30,960 nt of DNA from a virus, in the IMG/VR virus record IMGVR_UViG_3300038701_001058, positions 1 through 30,960 of that record; one strand, given 5' to 3'. This document shows positions 518 to 15,684 of the stretch, one piece after another; within the stretch, counting starts at the first letter, position 1; the number at the start of each line of letters is the position of its first letter. The notes under the pieces were generated by a model that was given only the letters and a program-made list of their open reading frames with translations, made no database searches and was not told where the DNA came from. Made by a program: the position numbers and the translations under genes.

Positions 518-572
518 GCGAGGTAGTGGCGAGCATGGTGCTCGGAAGGCGGTTCGACCCCGCCGCCTCGCG
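518..572 (+). ncRNA. tRNA-like element A (acceptor stem plus T-arm, no clear anticodon arm)
   Basis: A perfect T-arm is present: GGCGG (548-552), loop TTCGACC (553-559), CCGCC (560-564). The next seven bases, GCCTCGC (565-571), pair fully with GCGAGGT (518-524) with one G-U. Between them lies only one hairpin, CGAGC/GCTCG (530-534/540-544). An alternative 5' end at 479 (GCGGGGG, one mismatch) would add a D-arm-like hairpin, GCCG/CGGC at 487-490/501-504, with a 10-nt loop, and would make the 530-544 hairpin a long variable arm. In neither fold do I find a five-pair stem with a seven-base loop. The element ends 31 nt before the start at 604. Confidence 0.4.
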
Positions 573-603
573 TGCCGGAATGGGCCGGCGAGAGGAGGGA
601 GTG

Positions 604-885
604 ATGGGAGCGGTGAGGGAGTTGTTGCGGGAGCTGGTGCCCGTGCTTGTGTTGGGCTTGGTGATGGCGTGCGTGGTGGCGCCGGTGGCGGGGTTGTTTG
701 TGTGGTTGGGGGAGCCGCCAGTCGACGTTGTTGGTGTTTCTCTGGTTGCATGGGCGCCCATGACGGTTTTTGCCTGCATGTGGGCGTTCGGTGGTCGGTA
801 TGAGCAGTCCTCCAGGTGGGAGGAGGCCAAGGCGCGGGCGGAGAAGAAGGCGGCGCAACGGGGCGACCTGTCGGGGGTGGGATGA
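604..885 (+). CDS. Small membrane protein with two transmembrane segments
   Basis: A 93-residue protein of unknown function. Two hydrophobic segments are evident, about residues 11-35 (LVPVLVLGLVMACVVAP and on) and 41-63, separated by a short GEPPVD turn. A charged, Lys/Arg/Glu-rich tail follows (RWEEAKARAEKKAAQR), which should be cytoplasmic. I chose the ATG at 604 because AGGAGG at 593-598 sits 5 nt upstream. In-frame upstream starts (505 and beyond) have no such SD and would run through tRNA-like element A. Two transmembrane segments and a charged C-terminus resemble class II holins in topology. No endolysin or spanin is nearby, so a lysis role is only a possibility; superinfection exclusion is another. 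The next gene overlaps by 4 nt (ATGA). Confidence 0.55.
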   Translation: MGAVRELLRELVPVLVLGLVMACVVAPVAGLFVWLGEPPVDVVGVSLVAWAPMTVFACMWAFGGRYEQSSRWEEAKARAEKKAAQRGDLSGVG

Positions 886-1133
886 GGCCGAACACGGGAC
901 TCGCGCCCGAGCAACTCGAGGAGCTTCGGCGAATGACTGGGATCGAGTCGGTGCGGATGAAGGCGAGGCAGTCGGGGTCGGCCCCCGAACTCGTCGACTA
1001 CTACCTGGCTCGACTCGTCGAGGCGTTTGTACACGGGTGCAACCGGAGCAGCTATGTGTTGAGGGTCGGCCGGCTGGAGGGGCCGAGGTCGCAGAGGAGG
1101 AGGAGGGTGAAGCGACGAGGCAGGGTGCGTTAA
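882..1133 (+). CDS. Hypothetical small basic protein
   Basis: An 83-residue product whose ATG overlaps the stop of the previous gene in an ATGA arrangement, so the two are probably translationally coupled. The N-terminal two thirds is mixed helical (APEQLEELRRMTGIESVRM, then ELVDYYLARLVEAFVHGC). The C-terminal end is strongly basic (SQRRRRVKRRGRVR) and could bind nucleic acid. I do not recognise a family. A longer in-frame reading from 816 exists, but it is Gly-rich, out of keeping with the rest, and overlaps the upstream gene. The gene ends 10 nt before the -35 of the next promoter, so the pair 604/882 looks like a short operon. Confidence 0.5.
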   Translation: MRPNTGLAPEQLEELRRMTGIESVRMKARQSGSAPELVDYYLARLVEAFVHGCNRSSYVLRVGRLEGPRSQRRRRVKRRGRVR

Positions 1134-1143
1134 GGGGCCAATT

Positions 1144-1172
1144 TTGACGGCTTGATTCCCACCTGATCTAAT
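1144..1172 (+). promoter_or_regulatory. Sigma70-like promoter with TGn-extended -10
   Basis: TTGACG at 1144-1149, a 17-nt spacer, and TCTAAT at 1167-1172, with TGA immediately before the -10 (extended -10). The predicted start near 1179 gives a leader of about 185 nt that contains tRNA-like element B and ends at the RNA ligase SD. The flanks CTGATCTAATG and TTTGACGG are shared with the promoter at 3832. Confidence 0.7.
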
Positions 1173-1267
1173 GCCTCCTGACACCGACGGAAGATGTGCT
1201 CCCGAGGCGTCACCCACCCGAGGCGAGAGGAGGCAGTCATGTAGCGGGAGCAGTCCGGCACCGAGGC

Positions 1268-1341
1268 GCGGTGCGTATGGGAGAGGAGCCGGGAGACCGG
1301 GTGCGGCGAGTGGTTGGCGGGTTCGAGTCCCGTGCGTCGCG
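1268..1341 (+). ncRNA. tRNA-like element B upstream of RNA ligase
   Basis: The T-arm is GCGGG (1317-1321), loop TTCGAGT (1322-1328), CCCGT (1329-1333), five pairs with one G-U. GCGTCGC (1334-1340) pairs at all seven positions with GCGGTGC (1268-1274), two of them G-U. The total of 74 nt is normal for a tRNA. The middle does not fold into a D-arm plus a five-pair anticodon arm: the clearest structure is CCGG/CCGG at 1289-1292/1297-1300 with a GAGA tetraloop. A competing six-pair hairpin, GCACCG/CGGTGC at 1258-1263/1269-1274, would sequester the 5' acceptor strand. The element ends 21 nt before the ligase ATG and overlaps its SD region only slightly. Confidence 0.4.
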
Positions 1342-1362
1342 TGGACAGGCAAGGAGGAGACG

Positions 1363-2637
1363 ATGAGGGAGATTACGACGTACGAGTTGCCGGTGTTGCT
1401 TGGGCGGCTGATGGAGGAGCCACAGGTGGTTCTGCGTGCCATCCACGACGACCCCAAGATCAAGAAGCGGCGCGGCGGCCCGGATGGACGGCTGGTGATC
1501 GCCAACACCAGCAAGGCCCTGGCGCGCCCGGAGTACGAGCATCAGCTCTACGCCAAGGGTATTGTGTATGACCCCTTGGCGTGGAAGGTCGTGAGCGTGC
1601 CGCTGCTCAAGATGCACAACCACGGCATGGACGAGGTGAGTGACGCGACCACGAAGCGCATGGAGGGCTGTCCGTGGTGCATCGAGGTCGCCGAGAAACT
1701 CGACGGCACCATGGTTCAGTCGTTCGTGTTCGAGGGCCGTGTGTGGTTGGCGACGCGCGGCGTCATCGAGGGCGACCCGGAGCATGGGGAGGAGTACCTG
1801 TCGCACGCGCGCAGGCTCCTCGAGGGTACGCATGCGCTCAATCCCGACCCACACTGGGGCTACACGCTGACCTACGAGCTCATACACCCGAGCACGCGCG
1901 TGATCACCGACTACAGGGGCAAGGAGTCCATGGTCCTCCACGGCGCTACGGTCACTCGATCGGCCTATGTGGTGCGCCCAACGGGGCTGCGGTTCCTGGC
2001 CAGGGTCTTGAACGTCCCCCACGCTCACGCGTACGTCTACAACGACAGTGTGGCCTACTACGAGTACGCCCGCACACTCGACGACGTGGCCCGTGGGTCC
2101 CTGGGTGCTCTAAAAGGGGCCACGACCCACCCCGAGGGGTTCGTCATGTCGTTCGTCGACGACGACCAAGTGTTGCACAGGGTCAAGGTCAAGACGCCGG
2201 AGTACGTCAAGCTGCATGCGCTCAAGTTCAACGCGACGCTCAAGACGGTGAGCAAGGCGGTGATGCAGGACGATGCTCGACTCGAGTGGGACGTGTTCAG
2301 GGCTGACGTGCTCGATGCGTCTGGTGTCGAGCTCGACGAGGAGACGCTGGCCGTCTACCGCGAGCACCACACGTCGGTGTGTGACTACGTGGATGAGCGG
2401 TACCGGTTTGCGGTCGAGGTGGACGATTGGGTGGCGCAGGCGTTCGATGAACTCGGGCCGCCCGAGTGCAACTCCGACTACGGACGGTTCGTGTCGTGGC
2501 TCAAGGAGCGTGGGCATGGTGAGCACGTGGGTTTGTTCATGCGGTCGGTGCGGTCGGGTGAGCCGGTAGACGTGGACAGGTGCATGTGGGCCAAGCCGTT
2601 GCACAATGGGTTCAGGGCGTTTTTGGAGGTGGAGTGA
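1363..2637 (+). CDS. RNA ligase, T4 Rnl1-like nucleotidyltransferase
   Basis: A 424-residue protein that should join 3'-OH and 5'-phosphate RNA ends through an enzyme-AMP intermediate. The covalent nucleotidyltransferase signature is clear: motif I EKLDG with the adenylated lysine at about residue 112. Further motifs are TLTYELI around 168-174, PEGFV around 257-261, and the closing VKVK motif V around 274-278, in the right order and spacing. T4 Rnl1 is about 374 residues, so this is slightly longer, with an extra helical C-terminus. I chose the ATG at 1363 for the AAGGAGGAG just upstream; the frame continues further up but would cross tRNA-like element B. In T4 the enzyme repairs tRNA cut by a host anticodon nuclease. 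An equivalent role here is inference, but the tRNA-like element directly upstream makes it attractive. It is first in an operon of small genes. Confidence 0.85.
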   Translation: MREITTYELPVLLGRLMEEPQVVLRAIHDDPKIKKRRGGPDGRLVIANTSKALARPEYEHQLYAKGIVYDPLAWKVVSVPLLKMHNHGMDEVSDATTKRMEGCPWCIEVAEKLDGTMVQSFVFEGRVWLATRGVIEGDPEHGEEYLSHARRLLEGTHALNPDPHWGYTLTYELIHPSTRVITDYRGKESMVLHGATVTRSAYVVRPTGLRFLARVLNVPHAHAYVYNDSVAYYEYARTLDDVARGSLGALKGATTHPEGFVMSFVDDDQVLHRVKVKTPEYVKLHALKFNATLKTVSKAVMQDDARLEWDVFRADVLDASGVELDEETLAVYREHHTSVCDYVDERYRFAVEVDDWVAQAFDELGPPECNSDYGRFVSWLKERGHGEHVGLFMRSVRSGEPVDVDRCMWAKPLHNGFRAFLEVE

Positions 2638-2876
2638 TGAACGTGCAGCCGAATGAGGCGTTGCGGGAGGCGAGGGAGCGGATTGCCGAGCTCGAGGCCC
2701 AGGTGTTCGAACTTGAGGCGCTTGTGCCGCGCGAGGAGATCGAGGGGGTTCGGCCGTGCATGGGCAACGGGGCGGTGTATCGCGTGATGTCGGGTGAGTT
2801 GTCGCCCGACGAGGGGGAGGTGGTTGCGGCCAAGATCATGCGCGCCGTACGGATGGCGCGAGAGGAGGGGTTGTGA
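2637..2876 (+). CDS. Hypothetical coiled-coil protein
   Basis: A 79-residue product. The start overlaps the ligase stop in TGATG, with GGAGGTGGAG just upstream, so translation is coupled to the ligase. Residues 5-30 form a strongly charged helix with heptad-like leucines and valines (ALREARERIAELEAQVFELEAL), a likely coiled coil. The C-terminal half (SGELSPDEGEVVAAKIMRAVRMAREEGL) also looks helical. I do not recognise a family. Its position suggests an early accessory function, perhaps oligomerising with the next product, which is also coiled coil. Confidence 0.6.
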   Translation: MNVQPNEALREARERIAELEAQVFELEALVPREEIEGVRPCMGNGAVYRVMSGELSPDEGEVVAAKIMRAVRMAREEGL

Positions 2877-3127
2877 TGGAGCACTGGCCAGCACAGACCG
2901 ACGAGGAGCACGACCTGGAGCTGATGCAACGGCAGTTGCGCAGGGTCGAGCGGGAGCACGACGAGAATTGGAGCACGGACGAGGAGCTCGCCGAGGCGCG
3001 CCAGGACGTGGAGCGCGCACAGGCGGCGCTCAGGTACCGCGCGTTGATGCGAGCCAAACAGGGGATGCGGGCGGACGTGGCGGCGCGGGTGCGCCAGGTC
3101 GCCCGGGAGATGGGAGTGGTGCGATGA
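2876..3127 (+). CDS. Hypothetical charged helical protein
   Basis: An 83-residue, almost wholly alpha-helical product rich in Glu, Arg and Gln (ELMQRQLRRVEREHDENW, EELAEARQDVERAQAAL), consistent with a coiled coil across most of its length. The C-terminal part is basic (MRADVAARVRQVAREMGVVR). It starts at the ATG of a TGATG junction, with GAGGAGG in the end of the preceding gene acting as SD; a GTG one codon earlier is less well spaced. No recognisable family. Adjacent coiled-coil genes suggest the two may pair. Confidence 0.6.
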   Translation: MEHWPAQTDEEHDLELMQRQLRRVEREHDENWSTDEELAEARQDVERAQAALRYRALMRAKQGMRADVAARVRQVAREMGVVR

Positions 3128-3366
3128 GTGAGCCGGTGACCTACCGGATCAATGAGTGGATGATGGCGAGCCTGCTCGAGGGTCGCAGCGTCCACATCCG
3201 GGGTGATGAAGACCACACGCTGGGGGAGGAGGTGCGCGTGTCGTGTGGGCGCGATGAGCGGCGCGCGGTCGTGCTGGGGCGCCTGTATGTCAGGAGCGAC
3301 ATGGGCGAGGCGTGGGAGACGCGGGTGCGGCTGCTGACGAAGGAGGAGCGGGATGCAGAGGGTTGA
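3124..3366 (+). CDS. Hypothetical protein, possible PUA/ASCH-like fold
   Basis: An 80-residue product starting at an ATG that overlaps the preceding stop by 4 nt. After TYRINEWMMASLLEGRSVHIRG comes LGEEVRVSC and a strand-rich centre (RAVVLGRLYV). The order 'LLEGR-x-xxIR, G-x-x-V-x-V, V-V-x-G-x-x-x-V' is reminiscent of small ASCH/PUA-type RNA-binding domains. The similarity is weak and seen only by eye. Such a fold would be in keeping with the nearby RNA ligase. The 3' end overlaps the next gene by 14 nt. Confidence 0.55.
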   Translation: MSEPVTYRINEWMMASLLEGRSVHIRGDEDHTLGEEVRVSCGRDERRAVVLGRLYVRSDMGEAWETRVRLLTKEERDAEG

Positions 3367-3598
3367 GGTCACGACGCGTGGGGGCATGATTGCCCTCGAG
3401 GTGGAGGTCGGCGACCGGAGGGTGACGGCGCTGCTAGGGCTCGATGGCGCAGCCAAGGTGCGTGACGGCCTCGAGACGGCGCGCAAGGTCGCCAAGGCCC
3501 AGCGAGACGTGGGGCGGTACGACCATGACGAGACGGAGGCCGAACGCGAGGTGCGCTACGCGCGGATGCAGGGCCTCGTGGACTCCCCGGACTATTGA
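3353..3598 (+). CDS. Hypothetical small protein
   Basis: An 81-residue product with a strong SD (AAGGAGGAG) inside the preceding gene, whose end it overlaps by 14 nt. The first half is beta-rich (RVEVTTRGGMIALEVEVGDRRVTALLGL). The second half is helical and charged (VRDGLETARKVAKAQRDV, DETEAEREVRYARMQG). No known motif is visible and I do not recognise the family. The mixture of a small beta sheet and a charged tail is typical of phage accessory proteins of unknown role. Confidence 0.6.
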   Translation: MQRVEVTTRGGMIALEVEVGDRRVTALLGLDGAAKVRDGLETARKVAKAQRDVGRYDHDETEAEREVRYARMQGLVDSPDY

Positions 3599-3605
3599 GG
3601 TGGGC

Positions 3606-3830
3606 ATGAGCAAGAGCACGCCGCCGTTTTACCTCCAGGTGCTCGTGGGCGGTGCGTGGGAGCCGCTCACGCGCGACGGCATCCCCATCGTGTGCCAGAC
3701 GTGTCCGGCAGCTCGGCGTGAGTTCGCCAAGCGGCTGCCCATCGCCTACGAGCGTGCGCGCCAGGGCGGAGAGGTGACGGCGCGCATCGTGGACAGGTGG
3801 GGGCACGTTCAGCGGCTGCCGAGGGCGTGA
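3606..3830 (+). CDS. Hypothetical small protein
   Basis: A 74-residue product starting at the ATG at 3606, 7 nt after the preceding stop, with GAGGTGGG as SD. The sequence is compact and mixed alpha/beta (FYLQVLVGGAWEPLTRDG, then VCQTCPAARREFAKRLP, then GEVTARIVDRWGHVQRLP). A single CQTC pair is present but there is no second pair, so a zinc site is not supported. It is the last gene of the ligase operon: the next promoter begins 1 nt after its stop. Confidence 0.55.
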   Translation: MSKSTPPFYLQVLVGGAWEPLTRDGIPIVCQTCPAARREFAKRLPIAYERARQGGEVTARIVDRWGHVQRLPRA

Positions 3831-3831
3831 T

Positions 3832-3860
3832 TTGACGGATGGTACGGGGACTGATCTAAT
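3832..3860 (+). promoter_or_regulatory. Sigma70-like promoter with TGn-extended -10
   Basis: TTGACG at 3832-3837, a 17-nt spacer, TCTAAT at 3855-3860, preceded by TGA. The geometry is identical to that of the promoter at 1144, with the same flanks (TTTGACGG and CTGATCTAATG). Transcription would begin near 3867, about 17 nt before tRNA-like element C, a short leader as expected for a tRNA transcript. Confidence 0.72.
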
Positions 3861-3883
3861 GGTCAAGTGAGGTTGACGAGTTG

Positions 3884-3971
3884 GCCGGGGTGACCCAATT
3901 GGTAGAGGTGCACGGACGGGCAACGGATGGCCCTACCCCGTGGGTTCCTGGTTCGAGCCCAGGCCCCGGCA
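3884..3971 (+). tRNA. tRNA-like element C, with an oversized anticodon region
   Basis: This is the most tRNA-like of the four elements. Acceptor GCCGGGG/CCCCGGC (3884-3890/3964-3970) pairs perfectly, with discriminator A3971. A D-arm of ACC/GGT (3893-3895/3907-3909) carries the classic AATTGGTAGA loop sequence. The T-arm CCTGG-TTCGAGC-CCAGG (3947-3963) is perfect. The anticodon stem CACGG/CCGTG (3911-3915/3938-3942) holds a 22-base loop instead of seven, inside which GGGC/GCCC (3918-3921/3930-3933) can pair. Alternatively ACCC-CGT-GGGT (3935-3945) forms a type II variable arm, leaving a 25-nt anticodon region. No fold puts a T at position 33 next to a usable anticodon, so isotype is unassigned. 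A 15-nt insertion or intron is possible. The 3' CCA is not encoded. Confidence 0.55.
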
Positions 3972-3983
3972 TGGAGGTGAGGG

Positions 3984-4100
3984 ATGATCGGCAGGTGGAG
4001 AGACATGGACGAGGGCACCATGGGGCGGCTGTTGCTGATGGTGACGGCGGCCGTGGTGTTCGGTGTGGCGTTGCTGGGTACGCCAGCGGCGTGTGTGTGA
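3984..4100 (+). CDS. 38-residue hydrophobic peptide
   Basis: A very short gene with a good SD (GGAGGTGAGG) directly before the ATG, which lies 12 nt after the tRNA-like element. The product is a basic/acidic start (MIGRWRDMDEG) followed by a single hydrophobic stretch (LLLMVTAAVVFGVALLG) and TPAACV. It could be a one-pass membrane peptide. A lipoprotein signal is less likely, because the only Cys is the penultimate residue. No family is recognised. The in-frame reading of the downstream methyltransferase extends back over 4100-4174 but has no better start than 4175. Confidence 0.45.
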   Translation: MIGRWRDMDEGTMGRLLLMVTAAVVFGVALLGTPAACV

Positions 4101-4174
4101 CGGCTACGAGGGGACATCGTGGGCGAGACGAGGGAGAGGCAGTGGTGGAGTGGGCGCGGTGCGTGGGAGGTGGC

Positions 4175-4735
4175 ATGACCATCCCCTACGCATCATCAGA
4201 GCACAATGAGTGGTGGACCCCTGAGAACGTACTCGAGGCGGTGCGCGTGCTCTACGGAGGGCCGCCCGACCTCGACCCGGCGTCGTGCGCCGAGGCGAAC
4301 GCCCGCGTGGGCGCGCTCGACTACTACAGCCCCGAGAAGGGGCAAGACGGATTGGTACTCCCGTGGCGCGGCAAGGTGTTTACGAACCCGCCCTATGGCT
4401 ACCGTGAGGGGCGGCAGTCCAATCAGGCAGTGTGGATCGAGCGGGCGTTTCGGGGGTGGGCACGCGGCGAGTTCGACGAGCTCGTGGGGGTGTTCGCCGC
4501 TCGCCCTGGTACGAGGTGGTACCGGTGGACCCAGCACATGTGCCGCTGCGTGCTCGACGAGCGCGGGTCGTTCGTGGAGCCGGATGCGCGCAGGATCGCG
4601 CGTGAGGCGGCAGGCAAGGCGTATGGGGGCGACACCAAGGGGACGGTGGTGGTCTACATGGGGTGGCGTTGGGGTGCGTTCTACGAGGCGTTTGGCCACT
4701 TGGGCGAGGTGCTCGAGCCGAGGAGGGGCAGATGA
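4175..4735 (+). CDS. Phage Dam-type DNA N6-adenine methyltransferase
   Basis: A 186-residue protein of the phage Dam family that transfers a methyl group from S-adenosylmethionine to adenine N6. Diagnostic features are the N-terminal NEWWTPENVLEAV, LDPASCAEANARVGA around residues 33-47, and the catalytic NPPY at 71-74 within VFTNPPYG. These follow the family order, and the length is normal. The SD is GGGAGGTGG ahead of the ATG at 4175; a longer in-frame extension upstream lacks family similarity. Phage genomes use such enzymes to evade host restriction or to mark their own DNA. No cognate restriction enzyme is visible here. The stop overlaps the following homing endonuclease start by 4 nt. 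Confidence 0.85.
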   Translation: MTIPYASSEHNEWWTPENVLEAVRVLYGGPPDLDPASCAEANARVGALDYYSPEKGQDGLVLPWRGKVFTNPPYGYREGRQSNQAVWIERAFRGWARGEFDELVGVFAARPGTRWYRWTQHMCRCVLDERGSFVEPDARRIAREAAGKAYGGDTKGTVVVYMGWRWGAFYEAFGHLGEVLEPRRGR

Positions 4736-5655
4736 TGGTGGGTGCGCGAAAGAGAAGGCCACGCAGTGGCTTGTGGGGCAAAACAGGCGTCTATGCGATC
4801 GAGTGTGTCGAAAATGGAAAGGCTTACGTTGGCCAAGCCACCAACATTGGCAAGCGCATCAATCATCACAGGTGGTCGCTTGATGCGGGGAGGCACGCCA
4901 ATCCACATCTCCAATCTGCGTGGGACAAGTACGGTGAAGAGTCTTTTACCATTCGGATTCTGGAAGAGACTTCGGATCTTGACGCCGCCGAAGAGCGATG
5001 GATGGACTCATTGGATGCGATCAATTCAGGGTTCAACCAACGCAAAGGCTGTCAGCCATTGAGGGGTGAGAGCGCTCCGAGGGCCACATTGACTGAGGCG
5101 CAGGTCAAAGAAGCGCGCAGGCGCTGCTTGGCTGGCGAAACAGGTGTCGACGTCGCTCGCGAGTTTGGAGTGACCAGTGCTGCGGTTTGTGGGGCTGTTT
5201 CTGGCAGAACGTGGGGTCACATCAAAAATCCGCCTCCGGTGGAGAATGCTCGTGAAAGGCGTACGCGCAGTTCAAGGCGAAAGCTGACAGAAGAATCTGT
5301 TGCGACGCTTAGGAGGGATTTCAAAGCGGGCAAATTCAGGGTTGGCACAAGAGCAAAGGAGATGGGCATAAGCCCCAAGAGTCTTCGTGCCGCTATTTCT
5401 GGGGCGACATGGCGTAGCGTAGCTGAGCCACCGGCAGACCCGAAGCACTTTGCTGGGATTGCGAAGGGTGCTGGGCACCATGCAGTTGCGCTGACGGCAA
5501 ATATGGTCGTGGAGATACGGCAACGGGCGAAAAGTGGAGAGCGGCTTGTCGACATTTGCAAATGCTATCCGGCGAGCAAGGCCACGATCTACGAAGCGGC
5601 CAAGGGCAAGACATGGAAGTACCTCGATGAGGTTGAGGCACCCTATGGGGTATAG
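4732..5655 (+). CDS. Free-standing GIY-YIG homing endonuclease with three helix-turn-helix repeats
   Basis: A 307-residue protein. The N-terminal nuclease domain (about 18-105) has the GIY-YIG pair as GVY (19-21) and YVG (32-34), the catalytic Arg in KRINHH (about 42), an acidic EERW (87-90), and the closing GFNQRKG. The remainder is three copies of a ~45-residue DNA-binding unit at about 120-164, 185-230 and 254-298. Each begins LT-x-x-x-V and ends in a T-W-x-x-(I/V/L) motif, typical of nuclease-associated modular HTH repeats. The DNA from about 4760 to 5620 is visibly less GC-rich than its surroundings, a sign of recent acquisition. It sits in ordinary coding sequence rather than an intron, so it is a free-standing element. 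The start could be 4732 or 4735. It overlaps Dam by 4 nt and the next nuclease by 11 nt. Confidence 0.85.
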   Translation: MMVGARKRRPRSGLWGKTGVYAIECVENGKAYVGQATNIGKRINHHRWSLDAGRHANPHLQSAWDKYGEESFTIRILEETSDLDAAEERWMDSLDAINSGFNQRKGCQPLRGESAPRATLTEAQVKEARRRCLAGETGVDVAREFGVTSAAVCGAVSGRTWGHIKNPPPVENARERRTRSSRRKLTEESVATLRRDFKAGKFRVGTRAKEMGISPKSLRAAISGATWRSVAEPPADPKHFAGIAKGAGHHAVALTANMVVEIRQRAKSGERLVDICKCYPASKATIYEAAKGKTWKYLDEVEAPYGV

Positions 5656-5920
5656 GAAGAAGGTAGACAGAAACCAGAAGGAGATCGTGCAAGCGCTCAG
5701 AGCTGCTGGGGCAACGGTCGAGTTACTTCACACTGTTGGCGCAGGGGTCCCCGACTTGATGGTTGGTGTCAACCAGACCAACTACCTCCTCGAGGTGAAG
5801 ACAGCCAAGGGCAAGCTCACCAAGGATCAAGTGGTGTGGCACGCGGCGTGGAAAGGACAGGTGGCGGTGGTCAGAACGGTCGAGGAGGCGCTGGCGGTGA
5901 TCGGCGCGGAGGTGGAGTGA
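5645..5920 (+). CDS. VRR-NUC-like PD-(D/E)XK nuclease
   Basis: A 91-residue nuclease. After a basic start (GYRKKVDRNQKEIVQALRAAG) comes GAGVPDLMVG with the first acidic residue D37, then YLLEVKT with E50 and K52. KGKLTKDQVVWHAAW (Q62) completes the VRR-NUC pattern. Phage members of this family are stand-alone, about 90-110 residues long, and resemble Holliday-junction resolvases and structure-specific nucleases. The start ATG at 5645 lies inside the end of the homing endonuclease gene, whose last codons double as its leader with GAGG at about 5635. It may cleave branched DNA in replication, recombination or packaging. The C-terminus (GAEVE) is dictated by the SD of the next gene. Confidence 0.75.
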   Translation: MGYRKKVDRNQKEIVQALRAAGATVELLHTVGAGVPDLMVGVNQTNYLLEVKTAKGKLTKDQVVWHAAWKGQVAVVRTVEEALAVIGAEVE

Positions 5921-6249
5921 TGGAGTTGAACCCGAACATCCGGCGCACTGTGGCGTGGCTCAACGAGCGCGACTGGCACACCTGCGACTCAGGTGACGGT
6001 GCAACGCAGGACTACGAGTGCGACTGGCCCACAGCGTATGTGGTGATCGATGGATGGTGCGGCCCTGGGTTCGGCAGCACTCCGCCGAACGAGTATGCGC
6101 GTGATTTGCTGTCGGATGTCGAGCGTCTCCTGGGCAAATCCCTGGCGGGTGTGTCTGTGGAGTTGTCGTATTCGCTGCCCAGTGAGCGCATGTTCCTGGT
6201 TCTGCTGGGTGTAGACGATGCGCGGCTGTTTGGGGCGGAGGTGGAGTGA
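5920..6249 (+). CDS. Hypothetical phage protein
   Basis: A 109-residue product starting at the ATG of a GGAGGTGGAGTGATG junction. It begins with NPNIRRTVAWLNERDWHTCDSGDG, continues to an acidic/aromatic centre (YECDWPTAYVVIDGW), then CGPGFG and a helical part (EYARDLLSDVERLLG). The segment 'WLN-x-RDW-x-TCDSGDG ... AYVVI' recurs in uncharacterised proteins of phages of GC-rich hosts as I remember them; no function is known to me. The same 15-base junction recurs at its own end. Confidence 0.6.
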   Translation: MELNPNIRRTVAWLNERDWHTCDSGDGATQDYECDWPTAYVVIDGWCGPGFGSTPPNEYARDLLSDVERLLGKSLAGVSVELSYSLPSERMFLVLLGVDDARLFGAEVE

Positions 6250-6515
6250 TGAGCGACGAGAAGGCGATATCGGTGACCGTCGACGGTCCGTTTGTGCTCA
6301 TCACGTACGGAGTGTGGGAGCTGTGCGTTCAGGCGGGTTCATTGGCATACATCTCGACCGAGTTGAACCCGGATCGAGGAGGTATGCGGGTCAGCCTGGA
6401 GGCCGAGCGTAAACGGTTGGTTGAACTCACGTTCGATACCAAGGATGAGGCAAACCGGTTCGCTGCGCGGGTCCGCAAGGCAGCGCTCGAAGCAGGCCAA
6501 TGGAGGCGAGGATGA
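6249..6515 (+). CDS. Hypothetical small protein
   Basis: An 88-residue protein, start coupled by TGATG to the previous gene. The N-terminal half is beta-rich (ISVTVDGPFVLITYGVWELCVQAGSLAYIS); the C-terminal part is a basic helix (DTKDEANRFAARVRKAALEAG). The layout of strands then a helix suggests a single compact domain. I do not recognise it. The end overlaps the next gene by 4 nt (ATGA). Confidence 0.6.
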   Translation: MSDEKAISVTVDGPFVLITYGVWELCVQAGSLAYISTELNPDRGGMRVSLEAERKRLVELTFDTKDEANRFAARVRKAALEAGQWRRG

Positions 6516-6757
6516 GCGAAGACGATCAATCGGGCGCCTACCCTTACACGTGCCTAGTGGTCGAGGAGGAGTGGTCGCACTCCGGCCTCGGGGAGATCGA
6601 GCGGTGCTGTGAAATGCATGCGTACGCGCGGACCATGCTCGAGGCGAGCCCAGCGTCTGCGGTGGCGTACAGCAAGGGCGCGCGTCGCGCAGGGATGCTC
6701 GCCACGCTGTGGTGGCTGACGGGGTGGGTAGATCTGCCCGAGATGGAGGTAGAGTGA
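6512..6757 (+). CDS. Hypothetical small protein
   Basis: An 81-residue product. Its ATG overlaps the upstream stop in ATGA, with GGAGGCGAGG as SD. It has an acidic start (SEDDQSG), a centre with two adjacent cysteines (IERCCEMHAYARTMLE), and a moderately hydrophobic C-terminal helix (AGMLATLWWLTGWVDL) that could touch a membrane but is short for a transmembrane segment. No known family is apparent. Confidence 0.55.
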   Translation: MSEDDQSGAYPYTCLVVEEEWSHSGLGEIERCCEMHAYARTMLEASPASAVAYSKGARRAGMLATLWWLTGWVDLPEMEVE

Positions 6758-9165: not shown

Positions 9166-9217
9166 TGTTCATGCGGGTTTGCGCGTGTTGCGTGGTCTCG
9201 AATGATGTTCGTGACGC

Positions 9218-9223
9218 TATAGT
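9218..9223 (+). promoter_or_regulatory. Weak candidate -10 (TATAGT) in the gap before the packaging genes
   Basis: The 69-bp gap between 9165 and 9235 is less GC-rich than its surroundings and contains TATAGT. No acceptable -35 lies 16-18 nt upstream; the nearest TTGCGT (9188-9193) is 24 nt away. A start near 9230 would also remove the GAGGAG SD at 9226-9231. A late promoter would be expected in this place, but the evidence is poor. Confidence 0.15.
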
Positions 9224-9234
9224 GTGAGGAGACG

Positions 9235-9699
9235 ATGACAGGCCGACCTACCAAATGCACACCGGAGTTGCTGGAGCAGTTCGGGCAGACGCTCGAGCGG
9301 GTGCTCTACATCGAGACGGCGTGTGCGCTCCACGACATCAGCTCGGACTCGTACCGCCGTTGGGTGGCCCGAGGAGAGGCTGAGCTTGCCCGCGTGGCCG
9401 CTGACGGCCGCAGGCGGGTGAGGGCGGAGGAGCAGCCGTTCGTGGACTTTTGCGGCATCTGCGCGCGTGCGAGGGCACGCGCTGAGGAACGGCTCCTGTC
9501 GACTATCGAGTACCACGCCACCATGGACGCTGGCGGCGACTGGAAGGCGGCGGCATGGAAGCTCGAGCGTGCGTTCCCCTACAAGTGGGGCAAGCGCGAG
9601 CGCATTGAGCACTCGGGCAAGGTCGACTCCGATGTGACTTTCCGCGTCGTGGTGCCTACACCGTCCAGCCTTGGAGACGATGAGCCAGATCACAGTTGA
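9235..9699 (+). CDS. terS: Terminase small subunit
   Basis: A 154-residue protein that should recognise the packaging site and load the large subunit. The start TGRPTKCTPELLEQF followed by IETACALHDISSDSYRRWVARGE is the typical HTH of phage small terminases (GRPTK-xxPE ... A-x-x-x-x-I-S-x-x-x-x-x-R-W-x-x-R-G-E). The centre (ARARAEERLLSTIEY) is the helical oligomerisation segment. WKAAAWKLERAFPYKWGKRER is another hallmark of this family. The SD is GAGGAGACG before the ATG at 9235. The end overlaps the large subunit by 20 nt, as is usual for this pair. Confidence 0.75.
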   Translation: MTGRPTKCTPELLEQFGQTLERVLYIETACALHDISSDSYRRWVARGEAELARVAADGRRRVRAEEQPFVDFCGICARARARAEERLLSTIEYHATMDAGGDWKAAAWKLERAFPYKWGKRERIEHSGKVDSDVTFRVVVPTPSSLGDDEPDHS

Positions 9700-10891
9700 G
9701 CTGCCGCGCCTCTACCCGGCGCAGCATGCGGCCATCTTTGCCCCACAGCGATACTCCATCATCGAAGCGTCTACCAAGGCGGGTAAAACGATGGGGTGCA
9801 TCGTGTGGCAGATGGCGCAGTGTATGGAGCGCGAGGGCAACCACTGGTGGGTCGCCCCCGTCTATACACAGGCTCGCATCGCCTACGAGCGCGCCAAGTC
9901 CTACCTGCCTCGCGAGCTCTACACGGCCAACGAAACCCGCCTTGAACTCACGCTGCTCAATGGGTCCGTATGGGTGTTCAGGTCGGCAGAGAAGCCAGAC
10001 AACCTCTATGGTGATGACGTCCTCTCGGCTGTCGTCGACGAAGCCTCACGCATGAGGGAGGCGGCGTTCATCGCGCTGCGCTCTACGCTCACTGCGACGC
10101 AGGGGCCGGTGCGCATCATCGGCAACGTCAAGGGCCGGGGTAACTGGTTCTACCGCGTGGCGCGCAAGGCTCAGTCTGGCGCCAAGGGCTACAGTTATCA
10201 CAAGCTCACCGCGCTCGACGCAGTGGCCGCCGGGGTGTTCCCTCGTTCGGAGTATGACGACGCCAAGGACGCGTTGCCCGAGCACGTGTTCCGCGAACTC
10301 TACATGGCCGAGCCTTCCGACGACGGCGGCAACCCGTTCGGGCTCCAGGCCATCGACGATTGCGTGGGCGCCATGTCCACGCGCCCGCCGCTCGTGTGGG
10401 GATGGGATCTCGCCAAGGCGGTCGACTGGACCGTGGGTATTGGGTTGGACGACGAGGGCAACGTGTGTCGGTTCGAGCGCTGGCAGAAGACGCCGTGGGG
10501 CGTGACCAAGGCTCGCATCCTTGCAGCGACCTCCGATGCGTTCGCGCTCGTCGACTCCAGCGGTCTCGGTGATCCAGTGCTCGAGGATATGCAATCCGAT
10601 GGGCTGCGCGCCGAGGGGTTCAAGTTCTCGTCGTCGTCCAAGCAGCAGTTGATGGAAGGGCTAGCCGCTGCGATCCAGCAAGGTCGCATGCGCATCCCCG
10701 CTGGCCCGATTGTGAGTGAGCTCGAAACCTTCGAGTACGAATACACGAGGACGGGCGCGCGCTACTCGGCGCCCGCCGGTCTACATGACGATTGCGTGTG
10801 TGCGCTCGCGCTTGCGTGGCGAGCATGGGAGCGCAGCCAACGCGCGCGGCCCCGATTGAGCGCGTCAATGGGCGGAGGAGCCAGACTTTGA
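9680..10891 (+). CDS. terL: Terminase large subunit (packaging ATPase/nuclease)
   Basis: A 403-residue motor protein that pumps DNA into the prohead and cuts the concatemer. Walker A is ASTKAGKT at about residues 30-37. Walker B with catalytic acid is SAVVDEAS at about 116-123. The C-terminal RNase H-like nuclease has acidic residues in WGWDLAK, in VDSSGLGDP, and in GLHDDCVCALALAW. The length is slightly short for the family (usually 420-550) but all motifs are present. The ATG at 9680 has GGAGACG upstream; a TTG at 9671 is an alternative. The portal start overlaps its stop. Confidence 0.92.
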   Translation: MSQITVELPRLYPAQHAAIFAPQRYSIIEASTKAGKTMGCIVWQMAQCMEREGNHWWVAPVYTQARIAYERAKSYLPRELYTANETRLELTLLNGSVWVFRSAEKPDNLYGDDVLSAVVDEASRMREAAFIALRSTLTATQGPVRIIGNVKGRGNWFYRVARKAQSGAKGYSYHKLTALDAVAAGVFPRSEYDDAKDALPEHVFRELYMAEPSDDGGNPFGLQAIDDCVGAMSTRPPLVWGWDLAKAVDWTVGIGLDDEGNVCRFERWQKTPWGVTKARILAATSDAFALVDSSGLGDPVLEDMQSDGLRAEGFKFSSSSKQQLMEGLAAAIQQGRMRIPAGPIVSELETFEYEYTRTGARYSAPAGLHDDCVCALALAWRAWERSQRARPRLSASMGGGARL

Positions 10892-13083
10892 AGCGACTGC
10901 TTGACGACATCATGGCACGTCACGGCGTGACGCTCGAGCAGCCTCGAGGCATTGGCGCGCCCGTGCGGCTCTCCTCTCCGGCGCAAGGTCGCGTGACTTC
11001 GCTGGCCGAGCAGGACCCCATCGGGCAGCCCGGTACGGTCATCCGAGACGGCGACATCTATGCCGAGCCCACGAGCCGCTACCGGCCTACCTACGTGCGC
11101 GGCTACTCGGGCGACCATGGGCTCTATGAGGAGCATTACCGCTCCGAGCCGCTGATCTTCGACGCTGTGCAATCGCACACCGAGACGCTGGTGCAAGGTC
11201 AGGTGCAACTTCAGGCGCCTGCCGAGGTGGACGATGCGATGCGGGAGCGCCTCGAGGACTTCGTGGACTTCCACAACGCGCGTTTGTCGAGCATGCCCGG
11301 TGGCTGGCCTCGCTACATCGAGCACGCCGCCTCCTGCCTCATCTACGCCTATGCTACGTTCAACATCGTGTACGGCGGCGTGGGCGAGGGCGAGCGAACC
11401 TACATCCATGAGCTGCGCTACTACGAGCCGAGCACTATCGACAAGTGGTGCTTTGACGAGCAACTGCACACGCTACTCGGGGTCGAGTACCGTACCACCG
11501 GCGACGGCGACTCGAGTTGGTACGTGCCCGCCGTGGGCGATTCGGTCACTGACCGCCGCCTGCTGCTCGTCAACCTCAACGCGCGCGGCAACAACGTCGA
11601 GGGCATCAGCCCGCTTCGCCCCACGATCTTCTACGTCAAGGCCAAGCAGCTCTTGATGCAGATTGCGATGGTGGCCGCCGAGAAGTATGGCATCCCCATC
11701 GCTGCGGTGCGTGAGGTGGTCGTGCCTCCCGGCGCGGGCTCGCGCTCCATCGAGGACGACGCCGACACGATCTTTCGTGCGCTCAAGTATCAGCAGGCGG
11801 TCAACGCGCACGTCGCCAAGCTGCCCGCCGGGCTCGACATCGAGTACAAGGGTCCGCAGGGTCAGATGCCCACGTATGGCGATCTGATCGCGTACTGTGA
11901 CCAGATGATCGCCACGACGTTCTCGGTCGAGGGGTCCCTGCTAGGGCTACAGCAGGCTGTAGGCTCGTATGCGCTGGGCGAGGTCAAGGAGCGCGACGCG
12001 TTGCGTAGCGCGCCCTACTATGCGCGTCGCATCCTCGCGCCCCTCAACGAGATCATCCGTGAGCTCGCGATCTCCGAGTTGGGCGAAATGCGCGAGTACC
12101 CCAAACTCGTGTGGCGCATGGACACCGCAACCGATGACGGCGCGTGGCTCGAGCGCGCGACCACGGTCTTTGGCGGCTCGATCGACACGTGGCCAAAGGC
12201 AGCGCAAGCAGTCGCCCTCGAGATGCTCGACCTCCCGCCCGACACGTTCGAGTCCACCGAGGGGCGCGAGGAGCCCGAGCCCGCCGCGCTCGGGCTCTCC
12301 GAGTGTGGCCACGACCACATCACGCTCGCAGACTGGACACCGGCGCCGGTGAGCCTTGCCGAGGCCGACGCCGACGCGCTCGAGGCGATCATGGACGACG
12401 CCGAGGGCGCGCTTGCGCTCGAGCTCGGGCGCATCCAGCGCCAGATGCGCGCAGATTGGCGCGAGTTGATCCGAGACAACACTACGTCTGATGACCTGCT
12501 GGCAGACCGGCGCACGCTGCGTGACCGCTACGAGCCCATCATGCTCGACGCCGTGACGCGCGCGATGGCCGACGCAGCCGAGCAGGCCGGTGACGCCATG
12601 CTTGAGGCGTTGGGCGCTGAGGGTACGTATACGCTCGACATGGATGGCGAGATCGAGATGCTGGCCGTGGCCACGGCAGACGAGGCGCTGAACCGAGTCG
12701 TCGGTGTGATGACGCAGGCCGAGGTGGAACGCCAGCGCGGCGGCTCCAGGCTCACGGTCCCCATCCTCGCGGCCGCCACCCTCGCGCTGATCGCTGCGCG
12801 CGTGACCAGTAGCGCCATCAACCGCGCGCGTGACCGCGTGGTGCAAGGCGTCGCGTCGGCGCGGCGAGAGCGCGACGAGAGCGTGGGCCGCATCATGGCG
12901 ACCCGCAGCGCGGTACTCGACAACGCCACGTGCAAGCCTTGCCGTGACCTCGACGGTAAGCGCGCCGTGGTGGGCACCGACGCATACCGCCGCCTCCTTC
13001 CGCCCAACAGTTGCCTTGGGCTCGAGCGTTGCCGTTGCATCATGATCTATGACATCCCCGAGCGCGTGAGGGACGCAGAATGA
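10888..13083 (+). CDS. Portal protein fused to a MuF-like minor head domain
   Basis: A 731-residue protein. Residues ~20-450 form the portal, the dodecameric ring at the head vertex; regions such as HTETLVQGQVQL, YGIPIAAVREVVVPPG and EGSLLGLQQAVGSYALGEV are typical of SPP1/Mu-type portals. After an acidic linker comes a second, mostly helical domain. It ends in a MuF/SPP1 gp7-like signature: ATCKPCRDLDGK with C682 and C685, then PPNSCLGLERCRC with C709, C715 and C717, a presumed metal site. In most phages these are two genes. The start is the TTG at 10888, with GGAGGAG at 10874-10880 and overlap with the terL stop; upstream in-frame ATGs lie inside terL. Confidence 0.85.
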   Translation: MKRLLDDIMARHGVTLEQPRGIGAPVRLSSPAQGRVTSLAEQDPIGQPGTVIRDGDIYAEPTSRYRPTYVRGYSGDHGLYEEHYRSEPLIFDAVQSHTETLVQGQVQLQAPAEVDDAMRERLEDFVDFHNARLSSMPGGWPRYIEHAASCLIYAYATFNIVYGGVGEGERTYIHELRYYEPSTIDKWCFDEQLHTLLGVEYRTTGDGDSSWYVPAVGDSVTDRRLLLVNLNARGNNVEGISPLRPTIFYVKAKQLLMQIAMVAAEKYGIPIAAVREVVVPPGAGSRSIEDDADTIFRALKYQQAVNAHVAKLPAGLDIEYKGPQGQMPTYGDLIAYCDQMIATTFSVEGSLLGLQQAVGSYALGEVKERDALRSAPYYARRILAPLNEIIRELAISELGEMREYPKLVWRMDTATDDGAWLERATTVFGGSIDTWPKAAQAVALEMLDLPPDTFESTEGREEPEPAALGLSECGHDHITLADWTPAPVSLAEADADALEAIMDDAEGALALELGRIQRQMRADWRELIRDNTTSDDLLADRRTLRDRYEPIMLDAVTRAMADAAEQAGDAMLEALGAEGTYTLDMDGEIEMLAVATADEALNRVVGVMTQAEVERQRGGSRLTVPILAAATLALIAARVTSSAINRARDRVVQGVASARRERDESVGRIMATRSAVLDNATCKPCRDLDGKRAVVGTDAYRRLLPPNSCLGLERCRCIMIYDIPERVRDAE

Positions 13084-14171
13084 ACGACACCGTTTCGCTG
13101 GAGCCTCGAAGCCTTGCTCTCATCGACATGGGCGAGGCCGACCAGGATACGATCCAGATGTTCGTGTGGGGCGAGGTGCGTCACCCGAAGATGCCAAAGT
13201 TCACCGTCGACAAGGCGTTTGCCGAGCAGATGGTGGCGAGCTTTGGCAAGCTCAAGGAGCACGGCTACTACCCGCCGATCATAGCCGACCACGGGCGCGG
13301 GCACGAGCCCGGCACGGCGCTTGGTATCGTGCTCGATGTGTTCATCAACGAGTCGGGCGTTGCCGCACGCGTGGAGTATGCCAAGGGCGTGCGCGAAGAG
13401 GTGCGCGCAGGCCGCCGCCCTTATCAGTCGCCAAGCTTCTACACAGAGTATACACACCCCCACACAGGCGAAGTGCTCAAGTATGCACTCCGCGAACTAA
13501 GCTTTGCCACCGTTCCGGTGCAAAAGAACCTTCCGCCGATGGGAGGATACTACAGCCTATCTGAGATTGGATGGGCCACTAACACACAGGAGGCCGTAAT
13601 GGCAGACCAGCCCGAGACGCCGGAGACGGCGCCCGTGGACAACATGGAAGACGAAAACCCCGAGATGGATCTTGCGGAGGAGTACGCCAAGCTCTCCGAG
13701 CGCATGACCGCGCTCGAGGAGCAGGTGCGCAAGATGATGGAGGGTCCGGGCGACGAGCCCGAGGAGGTGCCTTCGTCCGAGCCCGTCGCCAACGCCGAGG
13801 CAAGCGCCGATGAGCGCATCGCTGCGCTCGAGCGCACCATCGCGCTCAAGGACGCCGAGATCAACGTTCGCAGCGTGCTCCCCACCGCGCCCATGCAGGA
13901 GGTGACTGATTTGGCCGAGTCCATCGTCGACTCGCCCAAGCGCGGCGCGCGCCTGCTCTCGCTCGCGGAGCGCGCGTACAAGGCCGAGCCCACCACGAAC
14001 ACGATTCAGCAGCCGATGGGCGCGCCTGGTGCCTCGCCCGCCGAGCCCGTCGACTTTGCCGAGGCGTGGGACGCGTGCGCGTCCGAGCTCGGGACCACCG
14101 ACGCTGGCTCCATCGGTCGACTGATGGAGCGCCTGTACCCCCACCTTACCGGTCGCACGCTGATCGGCTGA
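13080..14171 (+). CDS. Prohead protease with C-terminal scaffold (Mu I-type)
   Basis: A 363-residue protein that should mature the capsid by cleaving scaffold and itself. The N-terminal protease domain (about 1-165) resembles the Mu I serine protease family: IIADHGRGHEPG with a probable catalytic His71, and RPYQSPSF with a probable Ser117, then LKYALRELSFATVPVQKN. From about residue 174 the protein is acidic and helical (EEYAKLSERMTALEEQVRKMM; ADERIAALERTIALKDAEI), the usual scaffold. A strong internal SD and ATG at 13588-13601 indicate that this part is also made alone. The start overlaps the portal stop by 4 nt. The last residues (IGRLMERLYPHLTGRTLIG) may contact the capsid protein. Confidence 0.85.
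   Translation: MNDTVSLEPRSLALIDMGEADQDTIQMFVWGEVRHPKMPKFTVDKAFAEQMVASFGKLKEHGYYPPIIADHGRGHEPGTALGIVLDVFINESGVAARVEYAKGVREEVRAGRRPYQSPSFYTEYTHPHTGEVLKYALRELSFATVPVQKNLPPMGGYYSLSEIGWATNTQEAVMADQPETPETAPVDNMEDENPEMDLAEEYAKLSERMTALEEQVRKMMEGPGDEPEEVPSSEPVANAEASADERIAALERTIALKDAEINVRSVLPTAPMQEVTDLAESIVDSPKRGARLLSLAERAYKAEPTTNTIQQPMGAPGASPAEPVDFAEAWDACASELGTTDAGSIGRLMERLYPHLTGRTLIG
13599..14171 (+). CDS. Nested scaffold protein (in-frame internal start)
   Basis: AGGAGG at 13588-13593 stands 5 nt before an in-frame ATG at 13599, the best SD/start pair inside the protease gene. It lies exactly where the protease fold ends and the acidic, coiled-coil scaffold begins. Initiation here gives a 190-residue protein equal to the C-terminal part of the protease. 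This matches known arrangements: lambda C/Nu3, and Mu I/Z. The excess of free scaffold over protease-scaffold would come from the stronger internal site. It should fill the prohead interior and be degraded on maturation. Confidence 0.7.
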   Translation: MADQPETPETAPVDNMEDENPEMDLAEEYAKLSERMTALEEQVRKMMEGPGDEPEEVPSSEPVANAEASADERIAALERTIALKDAEINVRSVLPTAPMQEVTDLAESIVDSPKRGARLLSLAERAYKAEPTTNTIQQPMGAPGASPAEPVDFAEAWDACASELGTTDAGSIGRLMERLYPHLTGRTLIG

Positions 14172-14217
14172 GTCCACACAACAGCCTCTCACGAGGCAGC
14201 ACATAAAGGAGGCCAAC

Positions 14218-14586
14218 ATGGCTCTCAACAACGCCGTCACCAAGCAGACCGCAGGCGCCGCCATCGGTCAGTACAAACTCGTCAAAGTCTCGGGCGCCAA
14301 CGTGGTCGTGACCACCGCTGCCACCGAACGCGTCCTGGGCTGCTCGCAGGCCGACGCTGCCGACTCGGGTGAGTCGCTGGCCATCACGCACGGTGGTCGC
14401 GTCAAGCTCAAGGCGTCCGGTGCCATCACCAAGGGCGCGCGCGTCGTGCCCGCCGCCGACGGTGAGATCGCCGCCGACGCTGGCACTTCCACGCACATCG
14501 CTTGCGGTGTCGCGCTCGAGGCCGCCGCCGCCGATGGTGACGTGATCGAGGTCCTGCTCGATCCGAGCATCACCGTCAACGCGTGA
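14218..14586 (+). CDS. Capsid decoration (cement) protein, DUF2190-like
   Basis: A 122-residue beta-rich protein located between the protease/scaffold and capsid genes, the usual place for the decoration protein. The sequence (IGQYKLVKVSGANVVVTTAATE, then GESLAITHGGRVKLKASGAITKGARVVPAADG and THIACGVALEAAAADGDVIEVLL) shows the alternating strands and 'G-x-I-x-x-G' turn of DUF2190-like capsid cement proteins. It has a strong SD (AAAGGAGG) 5 nt before the ATG, suggesting high expression. It is followed by two hairpins, one terminator-like, before the capsid gene. Confidence 0.7.
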   Translation: MALNNAVTKQTAGAAIGQYKLVKVSGANVVVTTAATERVLGCSQADAADSGESLAITHGGRVKLKASGAITKGARVVPAADGEIAADAGTSTHIACGVALEAAAADGDVIEVLLDPSITVNA

Positions 14587-14593
14587 CGATCCT

Positions 14594-14616
14594 GGCGTGC
14601 CCGTAGTGGGCGCGCC
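14594..14616 (+). other. 9-bp hairpin after the cement gene
   Basis: GGCGTGCCC (14594-14602) pairs with GGGCGCGCC (14608-14616), with one G-U and a GTAGT loop. It sits 8 nt after the cement stop and 15 nt before the terminator-like hairpin. It might protect the upstream mRNA 3' end or serve as an RNase cutting point. Confidence 0.5.
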
Positions 14617-14631
14617 GCTACACCACACACG

Positions 14632-14666
14632 AGAGCCCGCCCGGCAGCGACCGGCGCGGGCTCTTT
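14632..14666 (+). terminator. Intrinsic-terminator-like hairpin between cement and capsid genes
   Basis: AGAGCCCGC (14632-14640) pairs perfectly with GCGGGCTCT (14656-14664), with CCGG/CCGG inside (14641-14644/14651-14654). The stem ends in only TTT (14664-14666), so termination would be partial. As the capsid gene must be transcribed from upstream or from a promoter I cannot see, this is more likely an attenuator or mRNA-stability element. Confidence 0.5.
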
Positions 14667-14684
14667 GCATACAAGGAGCCTCAA

Positions 14685-15581
14685 ATGGGTTTCAACGCCA
14701 ACAGCCTGCCCGGCGACGTGCTCGACCGGGTGATCATGGGTCTCGAGGGCAAGGACGGCTCGGCCGTCGATCAGATCGGGACCAAAATCCCCGTGACCGA
14801 GCTTTCGGGCACCATCCCTGCCATGCCGAGCGTGTCGACGCTCGCCAAGTCCAACAACCCCGGCGGCATCCCCGAGGGGGCCGTGGCCAAGGACTTCGAC
14901 CTCAGCCTCTCCAGCGCGTCCTACGCGCTCAACCGCTACGTGGGCAAGTCCTACATCGCGGACGGTACGCGCGTGGCTCTCGACGGGCACGGGCTGCGCA
15001 CGCTCGAGTTCTACGCGCTGATGTGTCGCCGTCACTCGGCGGTTGACATCAACGCCGACCTCAACACCGTGCTCTCGTCCACCTCGCTCAACACCGAGGA
15101 GGCCGTGGGCAACGGCGCGTGGACGTCTTCGAGCTCGACGCCCATCGAGGACATGCAGGACGCGATGGCCAAGTGCGGTTACGGCGACGCTGCGTTCTTC
15201 GGCAGGGATGCCGTGGAGGCGCTTCAGCTCCATCCCGACTTCACTGCGCGCCTCTCGAACTACTCGGGCGGTGCGCTCTCCGAGGGTGAGGTGCTGGACG
15301 TGATCCGCCGCCTCTTCCCCTCGCTGCGCAAGATCGTGCTCGGCACCAACATGTACAACAGCGCCAACGAGGGTCAGGCGGCCACGCTGGCGTACCAGTT
15401 CGACGGCCTCGCGTGGATGGGCCACGAGGACGGCCTGCTCATCCCCGAGCAGACCGGCGCGCCCTCGACCGCGCAGTGGCGTGACGAGGATCGCGAGTCC
15501 ACCGGCATCCGCTTCACGCGCCGCCTCGACATCGTGCGCGTCCACCAGGACAAGGGCGCGGTCATCACGGGCGTGATCTGA
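14685..15581 (+). CDS. Major capsid protein (HK97-like fold expected)
   Basis: A 298-residue protein, in the canonical position after scaffold and cement genes, with a strong SD (AAGGAG) before the ATG. The N-terminal part (SLPGDVLDRVIMGLEGKDGSAVDQIGTKIPVTELSG) and the stretch YVGKSYIADGTRVALDGHG followed by a long helix (LRTLEFYALMCRRHSAVDI) fit the N-arm/E-loop plus spine-helix layout of HK97-type capsid proteins. The segments AAFFGRDAVEALQLHPDF and the closing GIRFTRRLDIVRVHQDKGAVIT are also typical of capsid proteins of this size. The identification rests on position and general pattern, not on a catalytic motif. A processing site cannot be identified with confidence. Confidence 0.8.
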   Translation: MGFNANSLPGDVLDRVIMGLEGKDGSAVDQIGTKIPVTELSGTIPAMPSVSTLAKSNNPGGIPEGAVAKDFDLSLSSASYALNRYVGKSYIADGTRVALDGHGLRTLEFYALMCRRHSAVDINADLNTVLSSTSLNTEEAVGNGAWTSSSSTPIEDMQDAMAKCGYGDAAFFGRDAVEALQLHPDFTARLSNYSGGALSEGEVLDVIRRLFPSLRKIVLGTNMYNSANEGQAATLAYQFDGLAWMGHEDGLLIPEQTGAPSTAQWRDEDRESTGIRFTRRLDIVRVHQDKGAVITGVI

Positions 15582-15614
15582 CCCTCCTCTCCTGACCGCC
15601 CGTAAGGGCACACA

Positions 15615-15684
15615 AGCGTGGCTGCTGCGGCAGACGGAGCGCGCGCCCATCGGCGTGTGCGGCGGTTCGATTCCGCCCGCGCTA
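15615..15684 (+). ncRNA. tRNA-like element D within the head gene cluster
   Basis: The T-arm GGCGG (15661-15665), loop TTCGATT, CCGCC (15673-15677) is perfect. CGCGCT (15678-15683) pairs with AGCGTG (15615-15620), with one G-U; A15684 would be the discriminator. If C15677 is given to the acceptor, that stem has seven pairs and the T-stem four. Inside are CTGC/GCAG (15622-15625/15630-15633) and CGCGC/GCGTG (15640-15644/15653-15657), the latter with an eight-base loop containing CAT at 15648-15650. This is not a standard cloverleaf. A GCCC-GTAA-GGGC hairpin with a GNRA loop lies just upstream at 15598-15609. The element ends 35 nt before the next gene. Confidence 0.4.

Follow-up and report, generated by a model that had tools for sequence, protein, structure and literature searches.

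In a 30,960-nucleotide (nt) stretch of DNA from an uncultured virus (positions 1 to 30,960 of IMG/VR record IMGVR_UViG_3300038701_001058, which may be a fragment; hereafter, the window), we find four transfer RNA (tRNA)-like elements, all on the + strand and all between protein genes. The existence and placement of these elements are established, as is the conservation of structure for one of them, element 4. Our favoured explanation, which we advance tentatively, is that the four are non-decoding tRNA mimics in the leaders or junctions of gene blocks, from which they would be excised by ribonuclease (RNase) P and RNase Z. The elements, and the evidence on which each was called, are as follows.

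518–571, + strand: element 1 (minimum-energy fold and pair probabilities, gap shuffles, match to a model of element 4).
1268–1340, + strand: element 2, the weakest of the four (T-arm scan, gap shuffles).
3884–3971, + strand: element 3, a tRNA match (Rfam RF00005, 37.5 bits against a gathering threshold of 29, E 5.7e-7, in a small-region search).
15614–15684, + strand: element 4 (recurs in related contigs L086, L082/L087 and L083; covariation; same fold from RNAalifold).

The original prediction, made from the letters of the window, had placed four T-arm/acceptor elements on the + strand in non-coding gaps before start codons, and an independent scan returned the same four sites. Five-pair T-arms with a TTCRANN loop occur exactly four times in the window when both strands are counted (at 548, 1317, 3947 and 15661), always on the + strand, and 3′ of each comes a 7-nt strand complementary to upstream sequence. 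If the loop is set to TTCRANY, dinucleotide shuffles of the window lead one to expect 0.27 T-arms, of which 0.12 would also have an acceptor, against four observed in either case. When the gaps were shuffled singly, 10,000 times each, a T-arm appeared in 0.05, 0.07, 0.01 and 0.02% of shuffles for gaps 1–4, and a T-arm together with an acceptor in no more than 2 of 10,000 per gap (≤0.02%), which upholds the earlier claim that the recurrence is unlikely to be chance. The same scan of 717 kb of related phage DNA gives 16 T-arms, or one per 45 kb (~0.7 per 31 kb); at least one of these belongs to an ordinary tRNA-Thr, and four represent a single site in four near-identical contigs. By gene calls made in this analysis from open reading frames (ORFs) and ribosome sites, which underlie the list of gaps, the window has four gaps of more than 100 nt (345–603, 1134–1362, 3831–3983 and 15582–15719), totalling 779 nt or 2.5% of its length. 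Each of these holds one element, and the shorter gaps (46–98 nt) hold none. The 3′ ends of the elements sit 12–35 nt upstream of start codons, which leaves space for a ribosome site. The acceptor/T-arm half is present in all four elements and a normal anticodon loop in none; nor does any of the four encode CCA directly 3′ of the acceptor. Default ARAGORN and a whole-window Rfam search gave no match, the latter missing element 3, which was later found by the small-region search. ARAGORN with relaxed thresholds returned hundreds of hits and was set aside as uninformative. The selenocysteine tRNA model RF01852 scores 16.2–19.0 bits, below its threshold of 47. A coding reading of the elements was rejected, as homologues agree with a ligase start at 1363 and element 4 shows single-base indels between relatives.

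On comparative grounds, element 4 is a real conserved RNA, as compensating mutations have preserved its shape across related phages. When IMG/VR was searched by capsid and portal, three related contigs emerged, L086, L082 (the whole contig being L087) and L083, and in all three the element occupies the same position, at the junction of the capsid and SAP genes. Alignment of the four phages yields a single cloverleaf, with 97% of cells paired over 25 pairs. It comprises an acceptor (15615–15620/15678–15683) of 6 pairs here, extended to 7 in two relatives, a D stem of 4 pairs (15622–15625/15630–15633), a 9-bp hairpin with a 4-nt CATC loop in the position of the anticodon arm (15639–15647/15652–15660), and a T-arm (15661–15677, loop TTCGATT). 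RNAalifold recovers the same structure unprompted. The 9-bp stem with its 4-nt loop is seen in all four phages, with one mismatch in L083. Six pairs are doubly compensated, two each in the acceptor, the D stem and the middle hairpin; when the partner strand is slid by 1–3 columns as a control, pairing falls to 31–59% of cells, with no more than two doubly changed pairs. Covariation in related phages had been named beforehand as decisive, and element 4 displays it. One caveat is that the four sequences really represent two lineages, so each compensatory change is probably one event; even so, six separate compensations make a strong case. That the anticodon arm has been replaced by a 9-pair hairpin, itself compensated, points to conservation of element 4 for a role other than decoding. 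Between the window and L086 the element is 96% identical, as against 53% for the capsid proteins and 72% for the SAP proteins, which may reflect constraint or module exchange. The leader 3′ of element 4 is likewise conserved. Within IMG/VR, a DNA pattern of the element matched these contigs only.

Element 3 is the only one of the four to pass the RF00005 threshold. It has an acceptor (3884–3890/3964–3970), a D arm, a T-arm (3947–3963, loop TTCGAGC) and a discriminator (A3971) without CCA, together with U8, the GG of the D-loop and a canonical T-loop. The original prediction held that none of the elements gives a five-pair anticodon stem with a seven-base loop. This stands for the loop, none being 7 nt, but not for the stem, since in element 3 CACGG/CCGTG (3911–3915/3938–3942) forms five pairs around a loop of 22 nt. 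No split of this loop provides a U at position 33, and the constrained tRNA fold, at −37.9 kcal/mol, is less stable than the minimum-energy fold at −43.0 kcal/mol. The suggestion of divergent phage tRNAs is therefore apt for element 3 at most, by its Rfam score, and even there the 7-nt loop and U33 are lacking. Intron-bearing tRNAs, another of the options raised, fare worse: the element 4 family has a closed 9-bp hairpin, and the loop of element 3 lacks both U33 after the splits tried and the canonical 3-4-3 bulge-helix-bulge of archaea, its GGGC/GCCC helix being flanked by 2 and 4 nt. ARAGORN's call of tRNA-Pyl (cta) for element 3 was rejected, given the absence of U33 and the use of TAG as an ordinary stop. 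The spans recovered from viral contigs by a D-loop/T-loop pattern derived from element 3 were mostly as long as a tRNA, and none had the length of element 3.

At minimum energy, element 1 consists of an acceptor (518–524/565–571), one six-pair hairpin with a 3-nt loop (530–535/539–544) and a T-arm (548–564, loop TTCGACC), with no D arm. It is the second-best match in the window to a model built on element 4 (E 0.0064), a match probably driven by the shared T-arm sequence. Element 2 has an exact T-arm (1317–1333, loop TTCGAGT) and a 3′ acceptor strand (1334–1340) whose 5′ partner is ambiguous, being either 1268–1274 or the compact 1302–1308; the acceptor strands originally listed thus do pair upstream at all four sites, but for element 2 the listed partner is one of two. 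A long hairpin at 1262–1345 (−39.7 kcal/mol, z −2.8) overlaps element 2 and excludes its T-arm, and could be an alternative fold or a switch. Scans of viral contigs found no homologues of gaps 1–3.

Gaps 1–3 each hold one match to an extended −10 promoter pattern, TTGACG-N14-TGNNNTRAT. With up to one mismatch allowed, these are the only three matches on either strand, against 0.14 expected, for a pattern that was built from the same sites. By motif, they are candidate promoters for the transcripts that would carry elements 1–3.

341–369, + strand: promoter-like site 5′ of element 1, TTGACG-N14-TGTCATGAT (pattern search, and also a generic sigma-70 scan).
1144–1172, + strand: promoter-like site 5′ of element 2, TTGACG-N14-TGATCTAAT (pattern search).
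3832–3860, + strand: promoter-like site 5′ of element 3, TTGACG-N14-TGATCTAAT (pattern search).

In all three of these gaps the promoter-like site comes first, then the tRNA-like element, then the ribosome site and the gene block. Gap 4, which follows the capsid gene, has no match to this pattern. Just 3′ of the first promoter-like site, at 369–425, lie overlapping inverted repeats (369–382/387–400 and 397–404/418–425), possibly a leader structure or an operator. Between the second site and element 2, at 1172–1252, two perfect 8-bp pairings (1172–1179/1228–1235 and 1197–1204/1245–1252) interleave, forming a possible pseudoknot.

We propose that the elements are transcribed within leaders or junctions of phage gene blocks. 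Each retains the stack of acceptor stem and canonical T-arm that tRNA-end enzymes read, and has no usable anticodon loop. Host RNase P would cut on the 5′ side of the acceptor, and RNase Z or an equivalent would cut 3′ of the discriminator, freeing the tRNA-like piece. The downstream mRNA would keep a short leader with its ribosome-binding site, and the capsid-side mRNA would gain a defined 3′ end from the cut after the capsid gene. The missing CCA supports this scheme, as it fits precursors trimmed by RNase Z. Of the options offered at the outset, tRNA mimics in leaders fits best. It is a further idea, possible but put forward with considerable reserve, that the elements together form a system: tRNA mimics would mark off the gene blocks of a tailed phage, and host tRNA-end enzymes would cut its operon transcripts, much like the tRNA punctuation of mitochondria.

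The closest anatomy is best read as that of mascRNA and menRNA, and the closest setting as that of plant mitochondrial t-elements. MascRNA/menRNA, substrates of both RNase P and RNase Z, have a tRNA-like acceptor and T stem-loop, a smaller D arm, a longer compact-loop stem and few linker residues (PMC11693755). By covariation, element 4 has the anatomy so described for this family (Rfam RF01684; human MALAT1 and MEN-beta). However, the human RNAs are nuclear and lie 3′ of a long non-coding RNA, whereas element 4 lies between phage genes and its cleavage is a prediction; nor does any element reach the RF01684 threshold of 42.5, the best being element 2 at 12.8 bits (E 4.9). Plant mitochondrial t-elements are tRNA-like structures at the ends of protein genes, which set mRNA ends via RNase P and RNase Z and are not aminoacylated (PMC11658184). 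Like them, all four phage elements sit at protein gene borders. The t-elements, however, belong to organelles and derive their likeness from homology to organellar tRNA genes, while here the setting is a bacterial phage and no parent tRNA is identified for elements 1, 2 and 4. Bacterial RNase P cuts acceptor/T-arm models in vitro (PMC11143913). Together, the mascRNA/menRNA anatomy, the t-element setting and the action of RNase P on acceptor/T-arm substrates lead us to favour excision. Two other systems invite comparison. A tmRNA has a tRNA-like end made of acceptor and T-arm, with a reduced D arm and no anticodon; the likeness is confined to that end, and there is no Rfam tmRNA match at the four sites. 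Phage tRNA genes are clustered, whereas the elements here are single copies at the starts of gene blocks; element 3 scores as a tRNA, yet its anticodon loop is 22 nt long and lacks U33.

Several observations weigh against excision. The tRNA-like fold of element 2 is not favoured (−29.7 versus −39.7 kcal/mol), either acceptor pairing costing 10–14 kcal/mol. The covariation covers element 4 only, in two lineages, and the outermost acceptor pair of that element (15614/15684 in the window) is A-A in two of the four phages. At element 3 only 23 nt lie between the end of the promoter-like site and the element, which would leave hardly any upstream RNA to cut away; what matters there would then have to be the excised RNA itself or a processed 5′ end. 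Finally, what is known of the elements comes from DNA sequence, and their processing is a prediction.

It is also conceivable, if somewhat unlikely, that the elements act in trans, as released small RNAs that serve as decoys or competitors for host proteins reading the acceptor/T-arm half, such as defence enzymes, their position reflecting the room available in a compact genome. Retention of that half in every element, with no normal anticodon loop, would suit such a role, and phage tRNAs have been proposed to counter tRNA-targeting defences through changes in the anticodon loop (PMC10264068). The RNA ligase gene may have a part in this conflict as well, and the tRNA cluster of Streptomyces phage AbbeyMikolon has two members with undetermined anticodons. 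However, the elements are single copies spread over four gene-block boundaries rather than a cluster, the site of element 4 is retained in two lineages, and anticodon nucleases cannot be baited because the anticodon loop is missing. Alternatively, the elements may be regulatory leaders that are never cleaved, acting in cis via a tRNA-recognising protein, by altering how RNA polymerase behaves where a gene block begins, or by protecting the 5′ end and ribosome site. We consider this somewhat unlikely too, although both readings compete seriously with excision. The ordered arrangement of gaps 1–3, the 12–35 nt left before the start codon and the conserved leader 3′ of element 4 all agree with it, but a TTCGANY T-loop and a 12-bp acceptor/T stack are the signature that tRNA maturation enzymes recognise, so that escape from cleavage would need explaining, and element 4 has no promoter-like site 5′ of it.

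That the elements are divergent or decaying phage tRNA genes with no leader function is improbable. Phage tRNA genes do usually occupy intergenic gaps, and element 3 exceeds the Rfam tRNA threshold; yet the element 4 family retains a compensated hairpin that is not an anticodon arm, its sequence is far better preserved between the window and L086 than the capsid protein beside it, and four independent decays all sparing the acceptor and T-arm would be unlikely. Chance pairing is extremely improbable: stems form easily in a window of 65% G+C, and the fold energies are only modestly below those of shuffles (z −0.6 to −2.8), but the T-arm and acceptor occur together at p ≤0.0002 per gap, and for element 4 synteny and covariation already refute it.

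tRNA-like processing signals beside genes are familiar from mitochondria and from two human long RNAs. We found no report of a set of such elements dividing a phage genome in the open-access literature, in a search that was not exhaustive. If the elements are cut as excision by RNase P and RNase Z would have it, the phage uses host tRNA maturation to set its mRNA ends. This could explain some of the anticodon-less 'tRNAs' of phages, and would reveal a class of phage RNA overlooked by default tRNA finders.

The genes that flank the elements are listed below.

604–885, + strand: gene for a small, probably membrane protein, 3′ of element 1 (ORF, Shine-Dalgarno AGGAGGG, no family match).
1363–2637, + strand: RNA ligase gene (T4 Rnl1-like), 3′ of element 2 (PHROG 562, E 5.6e-22).
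3984–4100, + strand: 38-codon ORF, 3′ of element 3 (ORF, Shine-Dalgarno GGAGGTGA).
14685–15581, + strand: major capsid protein gene, just 5′ of element 4 (PHROG 1005, E 4.8e-9).
15720–16229, + strand: gene for a SAP-domain protein, 3′ of element 4 (Pfam PF02037, E 3.3e-7).

The ligase start is backed by alignment with its relatives L112/L113 from residue 1. The enzyme is distant from known ligases, with ~24% identity to those of Streptomyces phages and 31% over its length to L112/L113, and it has no Pfam match. Repair of the elements by this ligase, as once suggested, is not borne out: the sole link is the position of the gene after element 2, and L112/L113 have no such element.

Relatives of the terminase occur in genomes of Alphaproteobacteria, Myxococcales and Bacteroidetes, so the host is probably a bacterium. 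The elements are absent from the terminase relatives (~60% identity), and no prophage turned up when bacterial genomes were searched by portal. L087/L082 has portal, protease, capsid and SAP genes in common with the window. Compared with 9671–10891 of the window, however, the ORF 5′ of its portal gene looks like a different large terminase, which suggests module exchange at the packaging genes. In the AbbeyMikolon tRNA cluster (L124/L125, NC_047904.1 41010–41567), the annotation lists two members as tRNA-OTHER, and their anticodon loops are abnormal; other phages, too, thus appear to carry tRNA-like genes of doubtful decoding ability. Elsewhere in the window, a GIY-YIG endonuclease gene at 4684–5655 possibly encodes a free-standing homing endonuclease. 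A degenerate G+C-rich repeat at 100–260, with units resembling GGGGCCGC and GGCGCCGCAAG, lies within an open frame at the window start and is possibly low-complexity coding sequence.

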